A stretch of 64,000 nucleotides of DNA, taken from positions 496,501 to 560,500 of the forward strand of contig RKSN01000001.1 in NCBI GenBank assembly GCA_005518185.1, given 5' to 3'. Numbering within the stretch: the first letter of the stretch is position 1; each line of letters opens with the position of its first letter. The notes beneath the pieces were generated by a model. That model was given only the letters and a program-made list of their open reading frames with translations. It did not search any database and was not told the origin of the DNA. Position numbers and translations under genes: made by a program. The DNA comes from Chakrabartia godavariana. GTDB taxonomy: Bacteria > Pseudomonadota > Alphaproteobacteria > Sphingomonadales > Sphingomonadaceae. Positions 9,395-41,340 of this stretch are shown piece after piece.

Positions 9395-10237
9395 GTGGCC
9401 AAGGACAATATCATCACATTCTACGATCTCGCGCTGTCGACCGGCGCGACGATCAGCCCCTTTGTGTGGGCAACCAAATATGCGCTGAAGCACAAGGTCT
9501 TTGACCTCGACGTCGTGCCGGGCGGCTTCACCGGCATTCTGGAACGCACTGGCGGCAAGACCGAACGGCTGCCTGCGATTGTGGATGATGGCGAATGGGT
9601 GCTCGATAGCTGGGGCATCGTCGAATATCTGGACACCAAATATCCGGATCGGCCCGCGCTCATCCCGCATGAGAGCGTTGCCGCGACGGTGAAGGCGCTC
9701 GACCATTGGTTCTGGGGCGCAGCCGTTGGTCCCTGGATGCGCTGCTTCTGTGCGGATTACCGCGATCTTTCGGTGCCACAGGATCATGAATACATCACCC
9801 ACAGCCGCGAAAAGATGCTGGGACGCAAGCTGGAGGACATTCAGGCCGGCCGCGAGGATCGCCTGCCGGGCATTTCAGCTGCGCTCGAGCCGCTGCGCGC
9901 GGCGCTTGGCCAATATGCGTGGCTCGGTGGGGCGTCGCCCAATTACGCCGACTACCGCATCATGGGCGGTATCCTGTTCACCGCATCGGTCTGCAAGACA
10001 CCGGTGCTGGCGGAGGATGATCCGCTGCGTGACTGGATTGAGCGGTGTCTTGATCTCTACGGCGGGCTTGGGCGCCATCCCGGACTGTTCCCGCTCTTTG
10101 GCCTGACGCAGCGTGCGGGCGACCCCGACCTGTTCAACCGCGCCGCCGGGCAGGGCGGCATCTACAAGCGCAACACCGGGCCGGACTCGACGCGGGCCGA
10201 AACGCAGCGGATCACCGAAGGGATGTCGAAGGCTTAG
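9395..10237 (+). CDS. Glutathione S-transferase family protein
   Basis: The 280-aa protein has an N-terminal thioredoxin-like domain (FYDLALSTGATISPF, then RLPAIVDDGEWVLDSWGIVEYLD with the glutathione-contacting Asp-Ser pair) and an all-helical C-terminal domain. The reaction partner is unknown; a detoxification or ring-opening role is possible. Translation begins at GTG 9395, with GGAGAGG at good spacing. The stop overlaps the stop of the convergent SH3 gene by four bases. The C-terminal tail beyond residue 250 is longer than in minimal GSTs. Confidence 0.88.
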   Translation: MAKDNIITFYDLALSTGATISPFVWATKYALKHKVFDLDVVPGGFTGILERTGGKTERLPAIVDDGEWVLDSWGIVEYLDTKYPDRPALIPHESVAATVKALDHWFWGAAVGPWMRCFCADYRDLSVPQDHEYITHSREKMLGRKLEDIQAGREDRLPGISAALEPLRAALGQYAWLGGASPNYADYRIMGGILFTASVCKTPVLAEDDPLRDWIERCLDLYGGLGRHPGLFPLFGLTQRAGDPDLFNRAAGQGGIYKRNTGPDSTRAETQRITEGMSKA

Positions 10238-10710
10238 TTCGCGCCCCAGATATGGGCCGTTTCGACATAGCCGATCCGGCCCGTCACATCGAACTTGCAC
10301 CAGCCATTGGCGCAATTGGTGATCTTGCCGACGACGCCGGGTTCGGCGCGCCAGACGATGCGGGCGTCGGGCTCTGGCTTCTCGCGCAAGGGCCGCACTT
10401 CGCCGCGCACGATGGCGGTGCGCTTGTCGGACAGGAGGTTGGCCTGCATCCAGCCCTGTGTGCCGTCCGGGTCCTCGATCTTGCGCCAATTGGGATAGAT
10501 GGCGAGGACTTTCACGGGGAGACCGGCACGCTGGTACATCCAGCTGGCCGGGAATTGCTGCCCGGGCCCAGTGCGCATCCGCGCCTTGCCCGCATTGATC
10601 GAGCTCCAATAAGGCACTTTCTTCTGGGCATGGGCGGCCAAGGGGGTCACCAGCAGGGCCAAAACTGTCAAAACGCTACCAAGACGCATCATCTTCAGAC
10701 CATTTCCCAT
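10234..10710 (-). CDS. Exported protein with bacterial SH3-type repeats
   Basis: This 158-aa protein has a signal peptide (MRLGSVLTVLALL, cleavage after AHA). Two SH3b-like units follow: one around KARMRTGPGQQFPASW...VLAIYPNWRKIEDPDG and one around VRPLREKPEPDARIVWRAE...GWCKFDVTGRIGYV. Such periplasmic SH3 domains often bind peptidoglycan or help target envelope enzymes. The start at 10710 (MGNGLK) is chosen because AAAGGA lies eight bases upstream; starts at 10692 or 10689 would also keep the signal peptide. It converges with the GST gene. Confidence 0.85.
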   Translation of the reverse strand: MGNGLKMMRLGSVLTVLALLVTPLAAHAQKKVPYWSSINAGKARMRTGPGQQFPASWMYQRAGLPVKVLAIYPNWRKIEDPDGTQGWMQANLLSDKRTAIVRGEVRPLREKPEPDARIVWRAEPGVVGKITNCANGWCKFDVTGRIGYVETAHIWGAN

Positions 10711-34925: not shown

Positions 34926-35825
34926 TTAGTTGCCTTGCAGCCGCTGGATGGCGGCCATCGACTGTTCGGCGCCCGACTGCGGCACGGTTTCGCCGGTGCG
35001 GTCGGTGATCTCCGCCCAGCGGGCCGCGACGGCTTCCGGCGTCCGTTCGCCGGCGGGAAGGGCGACACCGCGCGTCATGGTGATGTTGGCCGCGTGGACG
35101 AAGCCACCGCCTGCGCCGATGATCGCGTTCGACGGCGCGTCCTCAGAGACGAGGAACAGGGCCGCCGGAACGACATTGACCGGGTCAAACGCCTTGAAGG
35201 CTTCTTCGGGCATGATGTCTTCGGTCATGCGCGTGCCCGCGAGCGGGGCCAGCGTATTCACCTTGATGTTGTTCTTCGCGCCTTCGAGATAGAGCGACTT
35301 GGTGAAGCCGGCGAGGCCCAGCTTGGCGGCGCCATAGTTGGTCTGGCCGAAATTGCCGTAAAGGCCGGTCGAAGAGGCGGTCATCAGGATGCGGCCGTAA
35401 TTCTGCTCACGCATCGTTTCCCACACGGCCTTGGTCGCATAGGCCGAACCAAGCAGGTGGACCTTCACGACGAGGTCGAAGTCCGCCATCTCCATCTTGG
35501 TGAAGCTCTTGTCCCGCAGGATGCCGGCATTGTTGATGAGGATGTGGACGCCGCCCCAGGCTTCCTTCGCCTTGGCGACCATTTCCTGCATCTGGTCAAA
35601 TTCGGTGACGCTGCCGCCGTTCGACATGGCGTCGCCGCCAGCAGCCTTGATTTCCTCGACGACCTTGAGCGCGGCGTCGGAATGACCGGTGCCGTCGCGG
35701 GCGCCGCCCAGATCGTTGACGACAACCTTGGCGCCACGGCGGGCAAGCTCAAGCGCGTATTCGCGGCCGAGGCCACCCCCGGCACCGGTGACGATGGCGA
35801 CTTTGCCGGAAAAATCGATGGTCAT
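34926..35825 (-). CDS. Short-chain dehydrogenase/reductase, HSD17B4 N-terminal-like
   Basis: This 299-aa SDR has the cofactor motif VTGAGGGLGREYAL, NNAGILRD, and the catalytic Ser-Tyr-Lys in TASSTGLYGNFGQTNYGAAK. The VVNDLGG segment and a C-terminal extension after the core resemble the 3-hydroxyacyl-CoA dehydrogenase part of peroxisomal multifunctional enzyme 2, so fatty-acyl-CoA oxidation is plausible. The start at MTIDFSGK is chosen because upstream in-frame residues do not fit. It is a single gene. Confidence 0.88.
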   Translation of the reverse strand: MTIDFSGKVAIVTGAGGGLGREYALELARRGAKVVVNDLGGARDGTGHSDAALKVVEEIKAAGGDAMSNGGSVTEFDQMQEMVAKAKEAWGGVHILINNAGILRDKSFTKMEMADFDLVVKVHLLGSAYATKAVWETMREQNYGRILMTASSTGLYGNFGQTNYGAAKLGLAGFTKSLYLEGAKNNIKVNTLAPLAGTRMTEDIMPEEAFKAFDPVNVVPAALFLVSEDAPSNAIIGAGGGFVHAANITMTRGVALPAGERTPEAVAARWAEITDRTGETVPQSGAEQSMAAIQRLQGN

Positions 35826-36016: not shown

Positions 36017-36412
36017 ATGACCGAGCCGACCAACGATCAAAGCCAGCCAAATCTGTCGCGCCGCCGCGCGCTGCAGCTGGGCGCTGTCGGGGCTGCGACT
36101 GTCGTCTCCATCCGTCCCGCGCTCGCGCAGACGGCCGGCTCCATCCTCAACTGCGAAATCCCGGTGCCCGGTCCTGCCGGTGCGGGCCAGAATATCGCAC
36201 TCGACGGCAGCCTTGTGCCGCCGGGGACGGCCGGGTCATTCACCGGCTCCTATCGCCCGTTCAAGGGGGAAGAGGTGAAGCGGGCGCTGAAGGGCGGGAC
36301 GCTTCCCGGCACCAGCTACGAACAGTCTCAGGCCTATATCAACTATATCCGTCGCCTGCAGCAGGGGCAGAGCGGGTTCACCTGCTACGCCTCGCTCCAG
36401 ATGCCGCGCTAG
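36017..36412 (+). CDS. Small Tat-signal exported protein, first gene of the HprK/PqqD/NTase operon
   Basis: This 131-aa protein carries a twin-arginine signal (SRRRALQLGAVGAATVV, residues 14-30, cleavage after ALA near 37). The mature part is about 94 aa and rich in Gly, Ser and Thr, with two cysteines (46 and 123) and the C-terminus ASLQMPR. I recognise no domain. The PqqD-like gene starts three bases after its stop, so it is coupled to the modification genes and may be their substrate; that link is an inference. Confidence 0.7.
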   Translation: MTEPTNDQSQPNLSRRRALQLGAVGAATVVSIRPALAQTAGSILNCEIPVPGPAGAGQNIALDGSLVPPGTAGSFTGSYRPFKGEEVKRALKGGTLPGTSYEQSQAYINYIRRLQQGQSGFTCYASLQMPR

Positions 36413-36415
36413 GGC

Positions 36416-36682
36416 GTGGGCGCGCTTTTTTCGGCCGATCCGGCTGAAGGCTACCGGACAGTCACGCTCGATGGGCTGGCGGCCCTCTATCACCGCCGGT
36501 CGGGCATGACCCACGTGCTGGCAGAACCGGCGCCGGACATCATCGCCGCACTCGCCGGAACGCAACTGTCCACCCATGGTCTGGCGGCCGCGCTGGGTGT
36601 TGCGTCATCCCCCGACAATCTGGCCGCGCTCGCCGCGCGCCTTGACGAGCTTTGCGAAGCGGGGTTGGTATCGCGCGCATGA
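36416..36682 (+). CDS. PqqD family peptide chaperone, HPr-rel-A system
   Basis: This 88-aa winged-helix protein has the PqqD pattern: a beta strand TVTLDGLAALYHRRSGMTHVLAEPAPDIIAAL, then DNLAALAARLDELCEAGLV. PqqD-type domains bind leader peptides and present them to modifying enzymes. It starts at GTG three bases after the Tat protein gene, and its stop overlaps the kinase start (ATGA). The 'HPr-rel-A' label rests on its position beside an HprK-related kinase. Confidence 0.82.
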   Translation: MGALFSADPAEGYRTVTLDGLAALYHRRSGMTHVLAEPAPDIIAALAGTQLSTHGLAAALGVASSPDNLAALAARLDELCEAGLVSRA

Positions 36683-37542
36683 TGCGCGCCTTTTCGGTTC
36701 AGGTCGGCCCTTTCGGGTTTCGTGTGGGGTCCGCCTGGCCGCAGCCGATCCGCGCGCTCGAACGGCTCTATGCCGATTATCCCAAACCTGCCGACGGCAT
36801 TCCGGATTTCACGGTCCGGCTGGAGCCGGTGCGCGCGGTGCGTCGGTTCATCCGGCCCTCGGTCGCCATTCGCGGCGACTTCATGCTGCCCGACGCGGTG
36901 CCGACTTCGCTTGCGCATGGCCTGCTTGCGGCGGAAATGGCGATGAACCTGCAGGTCGCCATGGGGGAACGGCGCTTTCTCTTGCTCCATGCCGCCAGCG
37001 TGGAGCGCGATGGCAAGGTCCTGCTGATGACGGGCGAGTCCGGCTCCGGCAAGTCGACGCTCTCGGCGCTGCTGGGCGAAAAGGGCTGGCGCTTCATGGG
37101 CGACGAGTTTGCGCTGATTGATCCGGAAACCGGATTGGCCTTTCCGTTTCCACGGCCTGTCAGCCTGAAGAACGCCGCCGTCGCCGAGATGCTGCGGCAC
37201 GTCGCGCCCGAAAGGCTTGGCCCGGAGATGGTCGGCACGCCCAAGGGCGACATCCGGCACCTGAAGCCGCCCGTAGAGGCCATCCGGAGGATGAGCGAGC
37301 CGGGCAAGCCGGCGCTTCTCCTCTTCCCGCGCTATGGCCTGCCGCGTGACATTCGCCCGGTGCCGGCAAGCGAGGCCTTTGTCCGCCTGACGCAGGCGTC
37401 CACCAACTATACGATGCTCGGTGAGCGGGGCTTTGAGGCACTGACCAATCTCGTTCAGGGCATTCCCGGCCGCGCCATCGATTATCCCGACACGGCGACC
37501 GCGCTGGCGCTGGTCGATCAGCTCTGGGCCGATCCCGCATGA
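36679..37542 (+). CDS. HprK-related kinase A
   Basis: This 287-aa protein has a P-loop GESGSGKS (119-126) in a context like HPr kinase/phosphorylase C-terminal domains (LLLHAASVERDGKVLLMTG). Then come WRFMGDEFALID, with the acidic residues placed as in HprK, and PRPVSLKNAAV. The N-terminal HprK domain is absent. No HPr gene is seen, so the substrate is more likely a peptide or protein; HprK homologues in some lasso-peptide clusters phosphorylate precursor peptides. It overlaps both neighbours by four bases. Confidence 0.83.
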   Translation: MMRAFSVQVGPFGFRVGSAWPQPIRALERLYADYPKPADGIPDFTVRLEPVRAVRRFIRPSVAIRGDFMLPDAVPTSLAHGLLAAEMAMNLQVAMGERRFLLLHAASVERDGKVLLMTGESGSGKSTLSALLGEKGWRFMGDEFALIDPETGLAFPFPRPVSLKNAAVAEMLRHVAPERLGPEMVGTPKGDIRHLKPPVEAIRRMSEPGKPALLLFPRYGLPRDIRPVPASEAFVRLTQASTNYTMLGERGFEALTNLVQGIPGRAIDYPDTATALALVDQLWADPA

Positions 37543-38567
37543 AGGACGCGCGCATCCTTGCCTGGGTGCTGGCCGATCCGTCGCGCGCGGCGCAACTGCG
37601 CCCGCACCAATGGACCGCGATGCTCACCATCGCGCAGGCGGAGCGCCTGCTGGGCACGCTTGCCCACCGATTGGCAGGGCTGGAGGTGCCGGAGGCGGCG
37701 GCCCGCGTGCTGCACAGGGCGCGGCGGTCGGCGGAGACCGACCGGCGGCAGGCATTATGGGAAGCCGAAATGGCACGGCGCGCGCTCGCGCCTTTGGGTC
37801 TGCCGGTCCTCCTCCTCAAGGGCACGGCGGTTCTGGCGGCGGGCATGGATGCCGGTGCGGGGCGGCTGGTCGGCGACCTCGATATCCTCGTGCCGCGCGA
37901 CCGCATGGAGGCCGCGGAGGCAGCGCTGCTGTCCGCCGGATGGGAATGGGTGAAGGCGGACGCCTATGACGACGCCTATTACCGGAACCATATGCATGAG
38001 CTGCCGCCGCTGATCCACCGCGCGCGCGACAGGATGATTGACGTGCACCATACGATCCTGCCGCTGACGGCACGTGCCCGGCCGGATGCTTCCGCGCTGA
38101 TCGCGGATGCGGTTGATCTGGGCAATGGGATGAAGGTGCTCTGTCCCGAAGACATGGTCATCCATGCCGTCCTGCACCTGCTGGCCGATGGCGATCTGGC
38201 GGGCGGCCTGCGCAACTTGTGGGACATCGACCGGATGCTGCGCGAATTTGCGGAGGCTGAGGGCTTTTGGGCGCGGCTGCTCGCCCGCTCACGCCACCAC
38301 AAGGTGACGCGCTATGTCTCGCGTGCGCTGCGCCTGTCGCACCACATCTTTGAAACGCCGGTGGATCGCTATCTTGCCTGGCAGGGGCGGCGCGGCGACC
38401 TTTTCTACGCCGGTCGGCTCCTCGCGCGGAACGGCTGGGGGCAGGAGACGGCGACGCTTCTGCGCCTGGCCTTTTATGTCCGCTCGCACTGGATCCGGAT
38501 GCCGCCGCTGATGCTGGCGCGTCACCTCTTCACCAAATGGCGCAAGGGGCATCAGCCGATCCGCTGA
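37539..38567 (+). CDS. Nucleotidyltransferase family protein (NTP_transf_5-like), HprK-associated
   Basis: This 342-aa protein has a nucleotidyltransferase core with PVLLLKGTAVLA and the metal-binding GDLDILVPRD (Gly-Asp-Leu-Asp). A His-rich, helical C-terminal region follows, with CPEDMVIHAVLHLLADGD. Such proteins accompany HprK-like kinases in peptide-tailoring clusters. The ATG overlaps the kinase stop. Its end overlaps the convergent gph gene by 16 bases. Confidence 0.82.
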   Translation: MKDARILAWVLADPSRAAQLRPHQWTAMLTIAQAERLLGTLAHRLAGLEVPEAAARVLHRARRSAETDRRQALWEAEMARRALAPLGLPVLLLKGTAVLAAGMDAGAGRLVGDLDILVPRDRMEAAEAALLSAGWEWVKADAYDDAYYRNHMHELPPLIHRARDRMIDVHHTILPLTARARPDASALIADAVDLGNGMKVLCPEDMVIHAVLHLLADGDLAGGLRNLWDIDRMLREFAEAEGFWARLLARSRHHKVTRYVSRALRLSHHIFETPVDRYLAWQGRRGDLFYAGRLLARNGWGQETATLLRLAFYVRSHWIRMPPLMLARHLFTKWRKGHQPIR

Positions 38568-39232
38568 AGCGCCGGGATCAGCTCGTCATAATGGTCGATG
38601 ATGGCCGTCGCGCCGAGGTCCTCGACCGGCTGGTGGAGAAAGCCGAAGCTGACAGCGATGCTCGGGATATGCGCTGCCGTCGCGGCACTTGTGTCGTGGA
38701 TCGAGTCGCCGATGAAGGCGGCCTTCCCGCCGCCGCAGCGCGAGATCATCTCATGGATCGGATCGGGCTGCGGCTTGCCGCGCCCGGGGCCCATGGTGTC
38801 GCCGCCGATGACGGTGACGAAGCGCTCAAGCATCCCAATATTCTTCAGCAATTTGACCGCCAGATGCTCATATTTGTTCGTCACGACGGCGAGCTTCACG
38901 CCCGCTTGCCGCAGCCTGTCGAGCGCGTTGAGGAGCCCCGGAAAGGGAGGGCAATCGCTTCCCAGATGTTCCTCATAATGGTTGAGAAGAGCGGGCATCA
39001 GCCGCTTCACCTCGTCGCGGTCGACATCTCCATGCGCGGCCAGCGCCATTTCCAGCATGTGGCGCGCGCCCATGCCGACCAGCTGCTTGACCTCGGCTTC
39101 GTCAATCGGAGGCCGCCTGCCAAGCTTCAGCGCGTAGTTGAGCGATGCGGCCAGCTCGATGCTGGAATCAACAAGCGTGCCGTCCAGATCGAAGCCGACG
39201 ATATCGAAAGGAATTTCTGCTGCCATGCCCAT
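38552..39232 (-). CDS. gph: Phosphoglycolate phosphatase-like HAD hydrolase
   Basis: This 226-aa HAD-superfamily phosphatase has the nucleophile motif GFDLDGTLVDS, motif II VVTNK, the lysine in GKPQPDP and motif IV FIGDSIHD, with a C1-type helical cap. It removes phosphate from 2-phosphoglycolate, a product of DNA-end repair and photorespiration-like chemistry; related phosphosugars are possible. The start is at the first ATG or two codons later. It is divergent from glmU. Confidence 0.88.
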   Translation of the reverse strand: MGMAAEIPFDIVGFDLDGTLVDSSIELAASLNYALKLGRRPPIDEAEVKQLVGMGARHMLEMALAAHGDVDRDEVKRLMPALLNHYEEHLGSDCPPFPGLLNALDRLRQAGVKLAVVTNKYEHLAVKLLKNIGMLERFVTVIGGDTMGPGRGKPQPDPIHEMISRCGGGKAAFIGDSIHDTSAATAAHIPSIAVSFGFLHQPVEDLGATAIIDHYDELIPALQRIG

Positions 39233-40687: not shown

Positions 40688-40960
40688 ATGGCGCGCTTTC
40701 TCGTTGATATCCCTGAAGAAGATGTATCGCGGCTTGATGCAATGGCGCGGGCCGAGGGGAAATCGCGCGCGGCGGTGCTGCGCGAAGCGGTCGCCAGCTA
40801 TATTGCGGCGGAATCCAAGCAGGGGTTCGAGAAGTATTTTGGCCTTTGGGAACGACACGGCTCGACCGTTGATGGTCTTGACTATGAACGTCAGCTCCGC
40901 GGCGAATGGCCGGAGGTGTCCGACCTGAAGCCACCCAAAAAGAAATCAACCGCTGCGTGA
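40688..40960 (+). CDS. Ribbon-helix-helix antitoxin (VapB/CopG type)
   Basis: This 90-aa protein has an N-terminal ribbon-helix-helix DNA-binding domain (MARFLVDIPEEDVSRLDAMARAEGKSRAAVLREAV) and a C-terminal toxin-binding tail rich in Trp, Glu and Lys. Its stop overlaps the toxin start by four bases (GTGA). It should neutralise the PIN toxin and repress the shared promoter. Confidence 0.9.
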   Translation: MARFLVDIPEEDVSRLDAMARAEGKSRAAVLREAVASYIAAESKQGFEKYFGLWERHGSTVDGLDYERQLRGEWPEVSDLKPPKKKSTAA

Positions 40961-41340
40961 GCGAACGGTTCTTCGATACCAATATCGTCATCGACATGCT
41001 GCACAATCGTCCAGCGGCATGGGCCGAGGTGCGCAATGTCACCCGCGCTTGGATTAGCCGCATGACGTGGATCGAAGTGATGTCAGGCGTCCCCGATGAT
41101 GCGGCCGGCGAAACGGAAGAATTCCTCCGACTTTTCGCAATGTGTGAGATTGATGAGGAAATTGGCCGGCGCGCTGCAGCGCTGCGACACCATCGCAAAT
41201 CCCTGAAATCGCCCGACGCGATCATCCTGGCTTCGGCACAGGTTTCCGGTCGTATTTTGGTGACAAGAAACACAAAGGACTTCCCCGCCGAAATGCCGGG
41301 GATCCGCGTTCCCTATAAAGCTCCGAAGGAAACAAAATAG
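40957..41340 (+). CDS. PIN-domain toxin (VapC-type ribonuclease)
   Basis: This 127-aa PIN nuclease has the acidic metal ligands Asp7 (FFDTNIVID), Glu40 (TWIEVMSG), Asp87 (KSPDAIIL) and Asp108 (TRNTKDFP). VapC toxins cleave tRNA or rRNA. It starts at GTG overlapping the antitoxin stop. The stop TAG is directly followed by the glmS ATG, so the glmS ribosome binding site (AAGGAAA) lies inside this gene. Confidence 0.92.
   Translation: MSERFFDTNIVIDMLHNRPAAWAEVRNVTRAWISRMTWIEVMSGVPDDAAGETEEFLRLFAMCEIDEEIGRRAAALRHHRKSLKSPDAIILASAQVSGRILVTRNTKDFPAEMPGIRVPYKAPKETK

Follow-up and report, generated by a model that had tools for sequence, protein, structure and literature searches.

A Tat-signal protein as partner and proposed substrate of an HPr-rel-A kinase cassette in Chakrabartia godavariana and other proteobacteria

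Among the described systems closest to the operon reported here are the HPr-rel-A system of NCBIfam, whose models name no substrate, and the tailoring of two lasso peptides. In paeninodin, the kinase PadeK phosphorylates the C-terminal serine of the precursor; in pseudomycoidin, PsmK also phosphorylates the C-terminal serine, and PsmN, annotated as a nucleotidyltransferase, is needed for a hexose to be placed on the phosphate (a role for a host glycosyltransferase is not excluded; PMC9266682). The window analysed here, a stretch of 64,000 nucleotides of C. godavariana DNA, contains a four-gene operon that can be compared with both. Its kinase and its PqqD-like protein score above the curated cut-offs of TIGR04352 (HprK-related kinase A; 229.5 bits, cut-off 200) and TIGR04353 (HPr-rel-A system PqqD family peptide chaperone; 41.4 bits, cut-off 35), so that the cassette is a member of the HPr-rel-A system. 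Like the paeninodin and pseudomycoidin pathways (PMC9266682), it combines an HprK-like kinase, a nucleotidyltransferase-type protein and a serine near the C-terminus of the precursor; it differs from them in that its leader is of Tat type and is followed not by a short threaded peptide but by a mature protein of ~94 residues. The original prediction had drawn attention to the likeness to lasso-peptide kinases with an adjoining nucleotidyltransferase, a comparison made apt by the PsmK/PsmN parallel (PMC9266682).

A lasso-peptide cluster as such is disfavoured, as the lasso leader protease family PF13471 has no match in the whole genome. The operon contains neither a lasso cyclase (asparagine-synthetase-like) nor an HPr gene. 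A true HprK/HPr pair was also rejected, since gene 3 scores 17.5 bits against TIGR00679 (HPr kinase/phosphorylase), for a cut-off of 240. Its profile aligns over the P-loop core with the HPr kinase structure 1jb1 (E 1.7e-4), but an Asp-Glu pair stands where HPr kinase/phosphorylase has Asp-Asp, and the operon lacks HPr. Gene 2 shares with PqqD-type RiPP recognition proteins the TIGR04353 match and a conserved SGxTH (kept across 148 rows), but falls below detection by Pfam PF05402, and leader binding is putative here; given that this model fails on the PqqD protein of the window itself, the lack of a PF05402 match elsewhere is hardly informative. Full-text literature, with subscription papers largely outside the scope and absence therefore unproven, yielded no paper on an HprK-related kinase, with or without PqqD, or on HPr-rel-A. 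Papers joining HPr kinase and PqqD dealt with lasso peptides, the one joining PqqD, twin-arginine and RiPP dealt, by title, with Streptomyces as an expression host, and those joining exosortase, HprK and nucleotidyltransferase were, by title, apparently unrelated. The view that the locus is of an uncharacterised type stands for the substrate set, which is undescribed in the searched libraries, as is the export route, but not for the kinase and PqqD protein, which already form a named NCBIfam system; the kinase and chaperone families and the type of tailoring are known.

The four genes lie on the same strand within 36017-38567, as confirmed by ORF analysis of the window (Table 1). Their coordinates agree with the coupling originally described, with a 3-base gap between the gene 1 stop and the gene 2 start, and ATGA overlaps between genes 2 and 3 and between genes 3 and 4 (the ORF list also offers a longer TTG form of gene 3, from 36652). 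Since the neighbours, an SDR gene ending the divergent side at 35825 and a HAD hydrolase gene (38552-39232), are on the opposite strand, the operon consists of these four genes, and its recurrence across families argues against a chance assembly. Elsewhere in the window, between glmU and glmS, a ribbon-helix-helix gene (PF01402) overlaps a PIN-domain gene (PF01850) in a VapBC-like toxin-antitoxin arrangement (40688-41340, + strand).

Table 1. Window positions of the operon genes and of the residues discussed
Feature	Positions	Strand	Description
Gene 1	36017..36412	+	131 aa, ATG start; Tat-signal precursor, proposed substrate (family I)
Leader	36017..36127	+	Gene 1 residues 1-37 (SRRRALQLGAVGAATVVSIRPALA); predicted twin-arginine signal
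Codon of invariant C46	36152..36154	+	Shortly behind leader; 46/46 rows of alignment A1
TCYAS, residues 122-126	36380..36394	+	C-terminal signature [ST]CxxS; C123 and S126 46/46, T122 42/46
Gene 2	36416..36682	+	PqqD-like protein, GTG start; TIGR04353 match
Gene 3	36679..37542	+	HprK-related kinase A, ATG at 36679; TIGR04352 match
P-loop GESGSGKST	37033..37059	+	Kinase residues 119-127; Gly-Lys-Ser-Thr invariant in 26 rows
Asp-Glu pair D142-E143	37102..37107	+	Place of HprK's Asp-Asp (1jb1 alignment); invariant in 26 rows
Gene 4	37539..38567	+	PF14907 nucleotidyltransferase-fold protein
D113-x-D115 of gene 4	37875..37883	+	Frequency 1.00 in 179 aligned rows (some repeats of one genome)
Third Asp, D168, of gene 4	38040-38042	+	Frequency 1.00 in 179 aligned rows (some repeats of one genome)

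The reading we favour, with a probability of roughly 0.6, is that the operon serves the synthesis and modification of a single exported precursor, with PqqD-guided phosphorylation, probably followed by glycosylation or nucleotidylation, of a conserved serine, and Tat export. Gene 1 would be translated with its Tat-type leader, and the PqqD-like protein would probably bind the leader region and present the precursor. The HprK-type kinase would then phosphorylate a conserved hydroxyl residue next to a cysteine, for which we propose, from the pattern of conservation, S126 (or T122) in TCYAS, and the PF14907 protein would probably extend the phosphate, with a hexose by analogy with PsmN or else with a nucleotide. 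Finally, the modified protein would leave the cell via Tat rather than Sec and signal peptidase would remove the leader, so that neither a leader protease nor an exporter would be needed in the operon. The lack of PF13471 in the genome and the published PadeK and PsmK/PsmN parallels (PMC9266682) both argue for this scheme.

So does the invariance of the active-site residues of the kinase and of gene 4. Besides the residues of Table 1, the kinase keeps the His preceding the P-loop (26 rows); the Glu replacing the second Asp of the HprK pair counts against the proposed modification. Gene 4 matches PF14907 at 176.9 bits (cut-off 31.2), is the sole match to this family in its genome, and also keeps K94-G95 in the 179 rows, which include some repeats of one genome. 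Judging from nucleotidyltransferase folds, we take D113-x-D115 to be its likely metal-binding pair.

In hmmscan, gene 1 stays under every Pfam and NCBIfam cut-off, the Tat-signal models giving sub-threshold matches only. Against TIGR01409 (cut-off 16.7), it obtains 11.7 bits in hmmscan; when the genome is scanned by frames, it scores 16.3 bits by itself and just passes, at 16.8, once its neighbours in the frame are added. That gene 1 lies at or below this cut-off counts against the scheme. R16, P34 and A37 of the leader are invariant (46/46) in the family I alignment, and cleavage would fall after A37; behind the leader, the invariant residues are S42, C46, G64, A106, G120, C123, and S126 (46/46). 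The two cysteines seen in the original prediction are C46 and C123, whereas the Ser/Thr-rich body that it described was not recovered: with 8 Ser and 6 Thr among 94 residues, the mature part is not notably rich in either. Database records for Sphingomonas parapaucimobilis and Vibrio alfacsensis list the counterparts of gene 1 as hypothetical proteins.

Our sample of the taxonomic family contains 199 genomes, 61 of which carry the kinase above its cut-off and 58 a gene 1 relative (E <= 1e-3). This relative is present in 57 of the 61 kinase-positive genomes and in one of the 138 kinase-negative genomes (Fisher p 8e-44, genomes not being independent). The lone kinase-negative match (G188, E 9.5e-4) is probably due to chance, and the four kinase-positive genomes with no match at this threshold (G005, G099, G161, and G150) each carry a divergent Tat-signal ORF at the corresponding position. 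Moreover, the Tat gene and the kinase are jointly present or absent within six genera (g1, g22, g36, g44, g53, and g68). Conservation of gene 1 with the other three genes, originally suggested as a check, was thus strongly borne out: gene 1 is the cassette's partner, and both patterns argue for the proposed modification of its product.

The Tat gene is located directly upstream of the kinase operon in 57 of the 61 genomes (53 by match coordinates and 4 by ORF reading), the end of the Tat match and the start of the kinase match being 283-747 bases apart in the 53 genomes. Other arrangements are found in a few genomes. A group 1 glycosyltransferase gene lies between the Tat and PqqD genes in G196 (locus L122, 4725-5900), the only such insertion met, and in G040 the Tat-PqqD pair is on one contig and the kinase and nucleotidyltransferase genes on another. 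It counts against precursor modification that G042 and G122 keep PqqD with the kinase while their Tat gene occupies another chromosomal site. A gph gene like that of the window is present in 25 of 33 loci (L092-L124; loci sharing a genus are not independent), so that the chromosomal position of the cassette is often preserved; in S. parapaucimobilis, the same gph-glmU-glmS order occurs on a large plasmid.

Outside the family, a scan of named genomes gave 414 confirmed loci, the best 80 of which (mostly from beta- and gammaproteobacteria) were studied. A Tat-signal protein belongs to the cassette in 79 of these best 80. In 75 of them, a count that depends on our ORF choice and on single-linkage clusters, the neighbourhood includes a protein of one cluster (family III type, see below), whose leader resembles SRRRFT..GVLLTLASRPVLG and whose mature part starts with CxSPSGxxSGNxS; four further loci (L138, L178, L166, and L191) have similar or divergent Tat-signal ORFs. 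No Tat gene was found at L160, which counts against the proposed modification. At another locus (L207), the family III Tat gene comes after the nucleotidyltransferase gene and not before PqqD (about 10017-10697, + strand). A V. alfacsensis plasmid shows the same gene order with a 270-aa Tat-signal protein, and in the PqqD place an unannotated 84-aa ORF that has no match in NCBIfam or Pfam.

In a phylum-wide sample, 61 of 398 genomes are kinase-positive, 50 of them outside the family, or 49 when G366 (kinase at a contig edge) is excluded. According to our reading of ORFs, a Tat-signal ORF lies upstream in 43 of the 49 (G007, whose Tat ORF seems interrupted, was kept in the counts), and this frequency, together with that in the named loci, supports modification of the Tat protein. 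In five of the six remaining genomes, a family II Tat gene is located at another site or on the opposite side. It is directly beside the PqqD gene in G220, G266, G321, and G331 (in the last, the pair is divergent and adjoins the kinase); G278 also has a family II Tat gene, its PqqD adjacency not being among those counted. No Tat match was found in G382 (57% complete), which is a point against the scheme. Together with G040, this makes five genomes whose Tat gene adjoins PqqD despite not being directly upstream of the kinase, as would be expected under the proposed modification. Tat-motif screens retrieved 131/205, 148/207, and, at their loosest, 182/207 loci, many of them repeats of one genome. 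As the loosest screen also matches 55/576 other genes (68/75 for family III), final tallies rest on our reading of upstream ORFs. Upstream of the kinase, L215 (G298) and L129 (G322) carry Tat-signal proteins whose mature parts are unlike those of families I-III, and which perhaps represent further families.

Judged from their sequences, the Tat partners form at least three families (I, II, and III, alignments A1, A5, and A4, respectively) that are alike only in the signal region. Hhalign probabilities are 96.4% for I-II, 86.5% for I-III, and 96.0% for II-III, with every alignment ending at the signal peptide or shortly beyond it; no homology was found among the mature parts. A similar leader before variable mature parts is a feature of RiPP precursors, and the confinement of the likeness to the leader argues for the proposed modification. 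Searched against the 16,352 ORFs of the loci (E <= 0.01), leader profiles gave 67 (I), 39 (II), and 93 (III) matches, in a database with few generic Tat signals, where the excess over an ordinary Tat signal is only partly gauged. The matches first labelled 'other' all read as cassette substrates, three of those with the family I profile being substrates inside longer open frames. Reach across families is modest: in aligned rows, profile I retrieves 3 family II proteins, profile II 4 ORFs of family I, and profile III 3 of I and 3 of II. That each profile retrieves only 3-4 aligned members of another family counts against the scheme.

Behind the leader, C69, C178, and S181 are invariant in family II (22/22), as are S63 and S67 in family III, where C59 is kept at 90% or more (48 rows). 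The motif [ST]CxxS[LIFV] is present in the last 30 residues of all 46 family I and all 22 family II proteins, and in none of 778 other genes (0/778). The search for a conserved motif in the first protein, another suggested check, was thus successful, and its result supports modification; six Tat proteins that we read individually also carry the C-terminal motif. In family III it is found in 0/48, which counts against the proposal. There, a Cys/Ser motif sits at the opposite end, at the start of the mature part, with the invariant Ser just behind the Cys; a looser Cys-Ser motif near the start is found in 44/48, but also in 57/778 control genes.

A natural 82-residue family II precursor (L088, 2688-2933, - strand; G374, 76% complete) lies three bases before an intact PqqD frame and consists of the leader and about 20 residues ending SCLDSFNGL. 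The fact that leader and motif are both kept argues for modification of the precursor, and its size suggests that some 20 residues may suffice for a mature product. Predicted models have a mean pLDDT of 70.6 for family I and 79.2 for family III, the latter placing the conserved Cys/Ser stretch, at low pLDDT, ahead of a confidently predicted domain. The substrate models have no PDB match at E <= 0.001 and none with Z >= 2 among 44 chains, the best PDB match of the family III sequence has an E of 0.12, and the two substrate families tested have no NCBIfam or Pfam match over cut-off.

The substrate of the kinase and gene 4 might instead be a sugar, lipid or nucleotide in surface-polysaccharide synthesis, the Tat protein being an unmodified periplasmic partner of that product. 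In 44 of the 80 named loci (best 80 of 414), XrtA/PEP-CTERM polysaccharide-type genes, assigned through matches of their cluster representatives to XrtA/PEP-CTERM models, occur no more than 8 kb away, and 59/61 kinase-positive versus 107/138 kinase-negative genomes of the family contain an exosortase (Fisher p 3.7e-4, genomes not being independent). These two results make a role in surface polysaccharide plausible, though weakly supported, and the glycosyltransferase gene of G196 points in the same direction. However, the exosortase co-occurrence is weak, as most genomes of the family (166/199) hold one anyway, and this account does not explain the PqqD protein, nor why unrelated mature parts follow similar leaders, nor why the Tat gene adjoins PqqD in the five split arrangements; we consider it rather unlikely. 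In genome G000, two exosortase-type genes exceed the TIGR02602 cut-off (C1:1151783-1152478 and C3:405622-406332), far from the cassette.

True HPr kinases both phosphorylate and dephosphorylate. The kinase could accordingly be a reversible switch on folding or export of the Tat precursor, with gene 4 adding or removing a regulatory nucleotide and no permanent tag; the PqqD protein could hold the signal peptide as a Tat chaperone does, and the genomic evidence is the same as for lasting modification. Such a switch nevertheless seems improbable to us, since in families I and II the best-conserved mature residues are distant from the leader, and since the modification made by published relatives of the kinase/PF14907 pair is a lasting one (PMC9266682). 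A cassette modifying a peptide encoded elsewhere, next to an unrelated but long-standing Tat gene, appears highly improbable. Its position beside gph-glmU in many family loci makes long-lived neighbours possible, but Tat gene and cassette come and go together within the six genera, the Tat gene persists where loci have split, and non-homologous Tat proteins fill the same slot elsewhere. Co-occurrence and the recurrence of such proteins in that slot also disfavour a chance neighbour.

Under the favoured reading, modification of an exported precursor, the cassette of many proteobacteria apparently serves to tag, within the cell, a protein destined for export. The HPr-rel-A kinase is annotated in many genomes beside a 'peptide' chaperone, and the searched family libraries name no such peptide; a substrate, a leader and a residue-level target are now proposed for it, so that the reactions of the kinase and of the uncharacterised nucleotidyltransferase family PF14907 can be tested directly. 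If right, this reading would join Tat export to precursor modification guided by a recognition protein. More tentatively, as a possibility that we rate below even odds, these proteins may form a widespread exported class whose Tat leader would also serve as a RiPP-like leader recognised by PqqD, and in which a Ser by a Cys would receive a phosphodiester-linked sugar or nucleotide before export. If this were true, exosortase-bearing bacteria could gain a protein-borne anchor or primer for surface polysaccharide.
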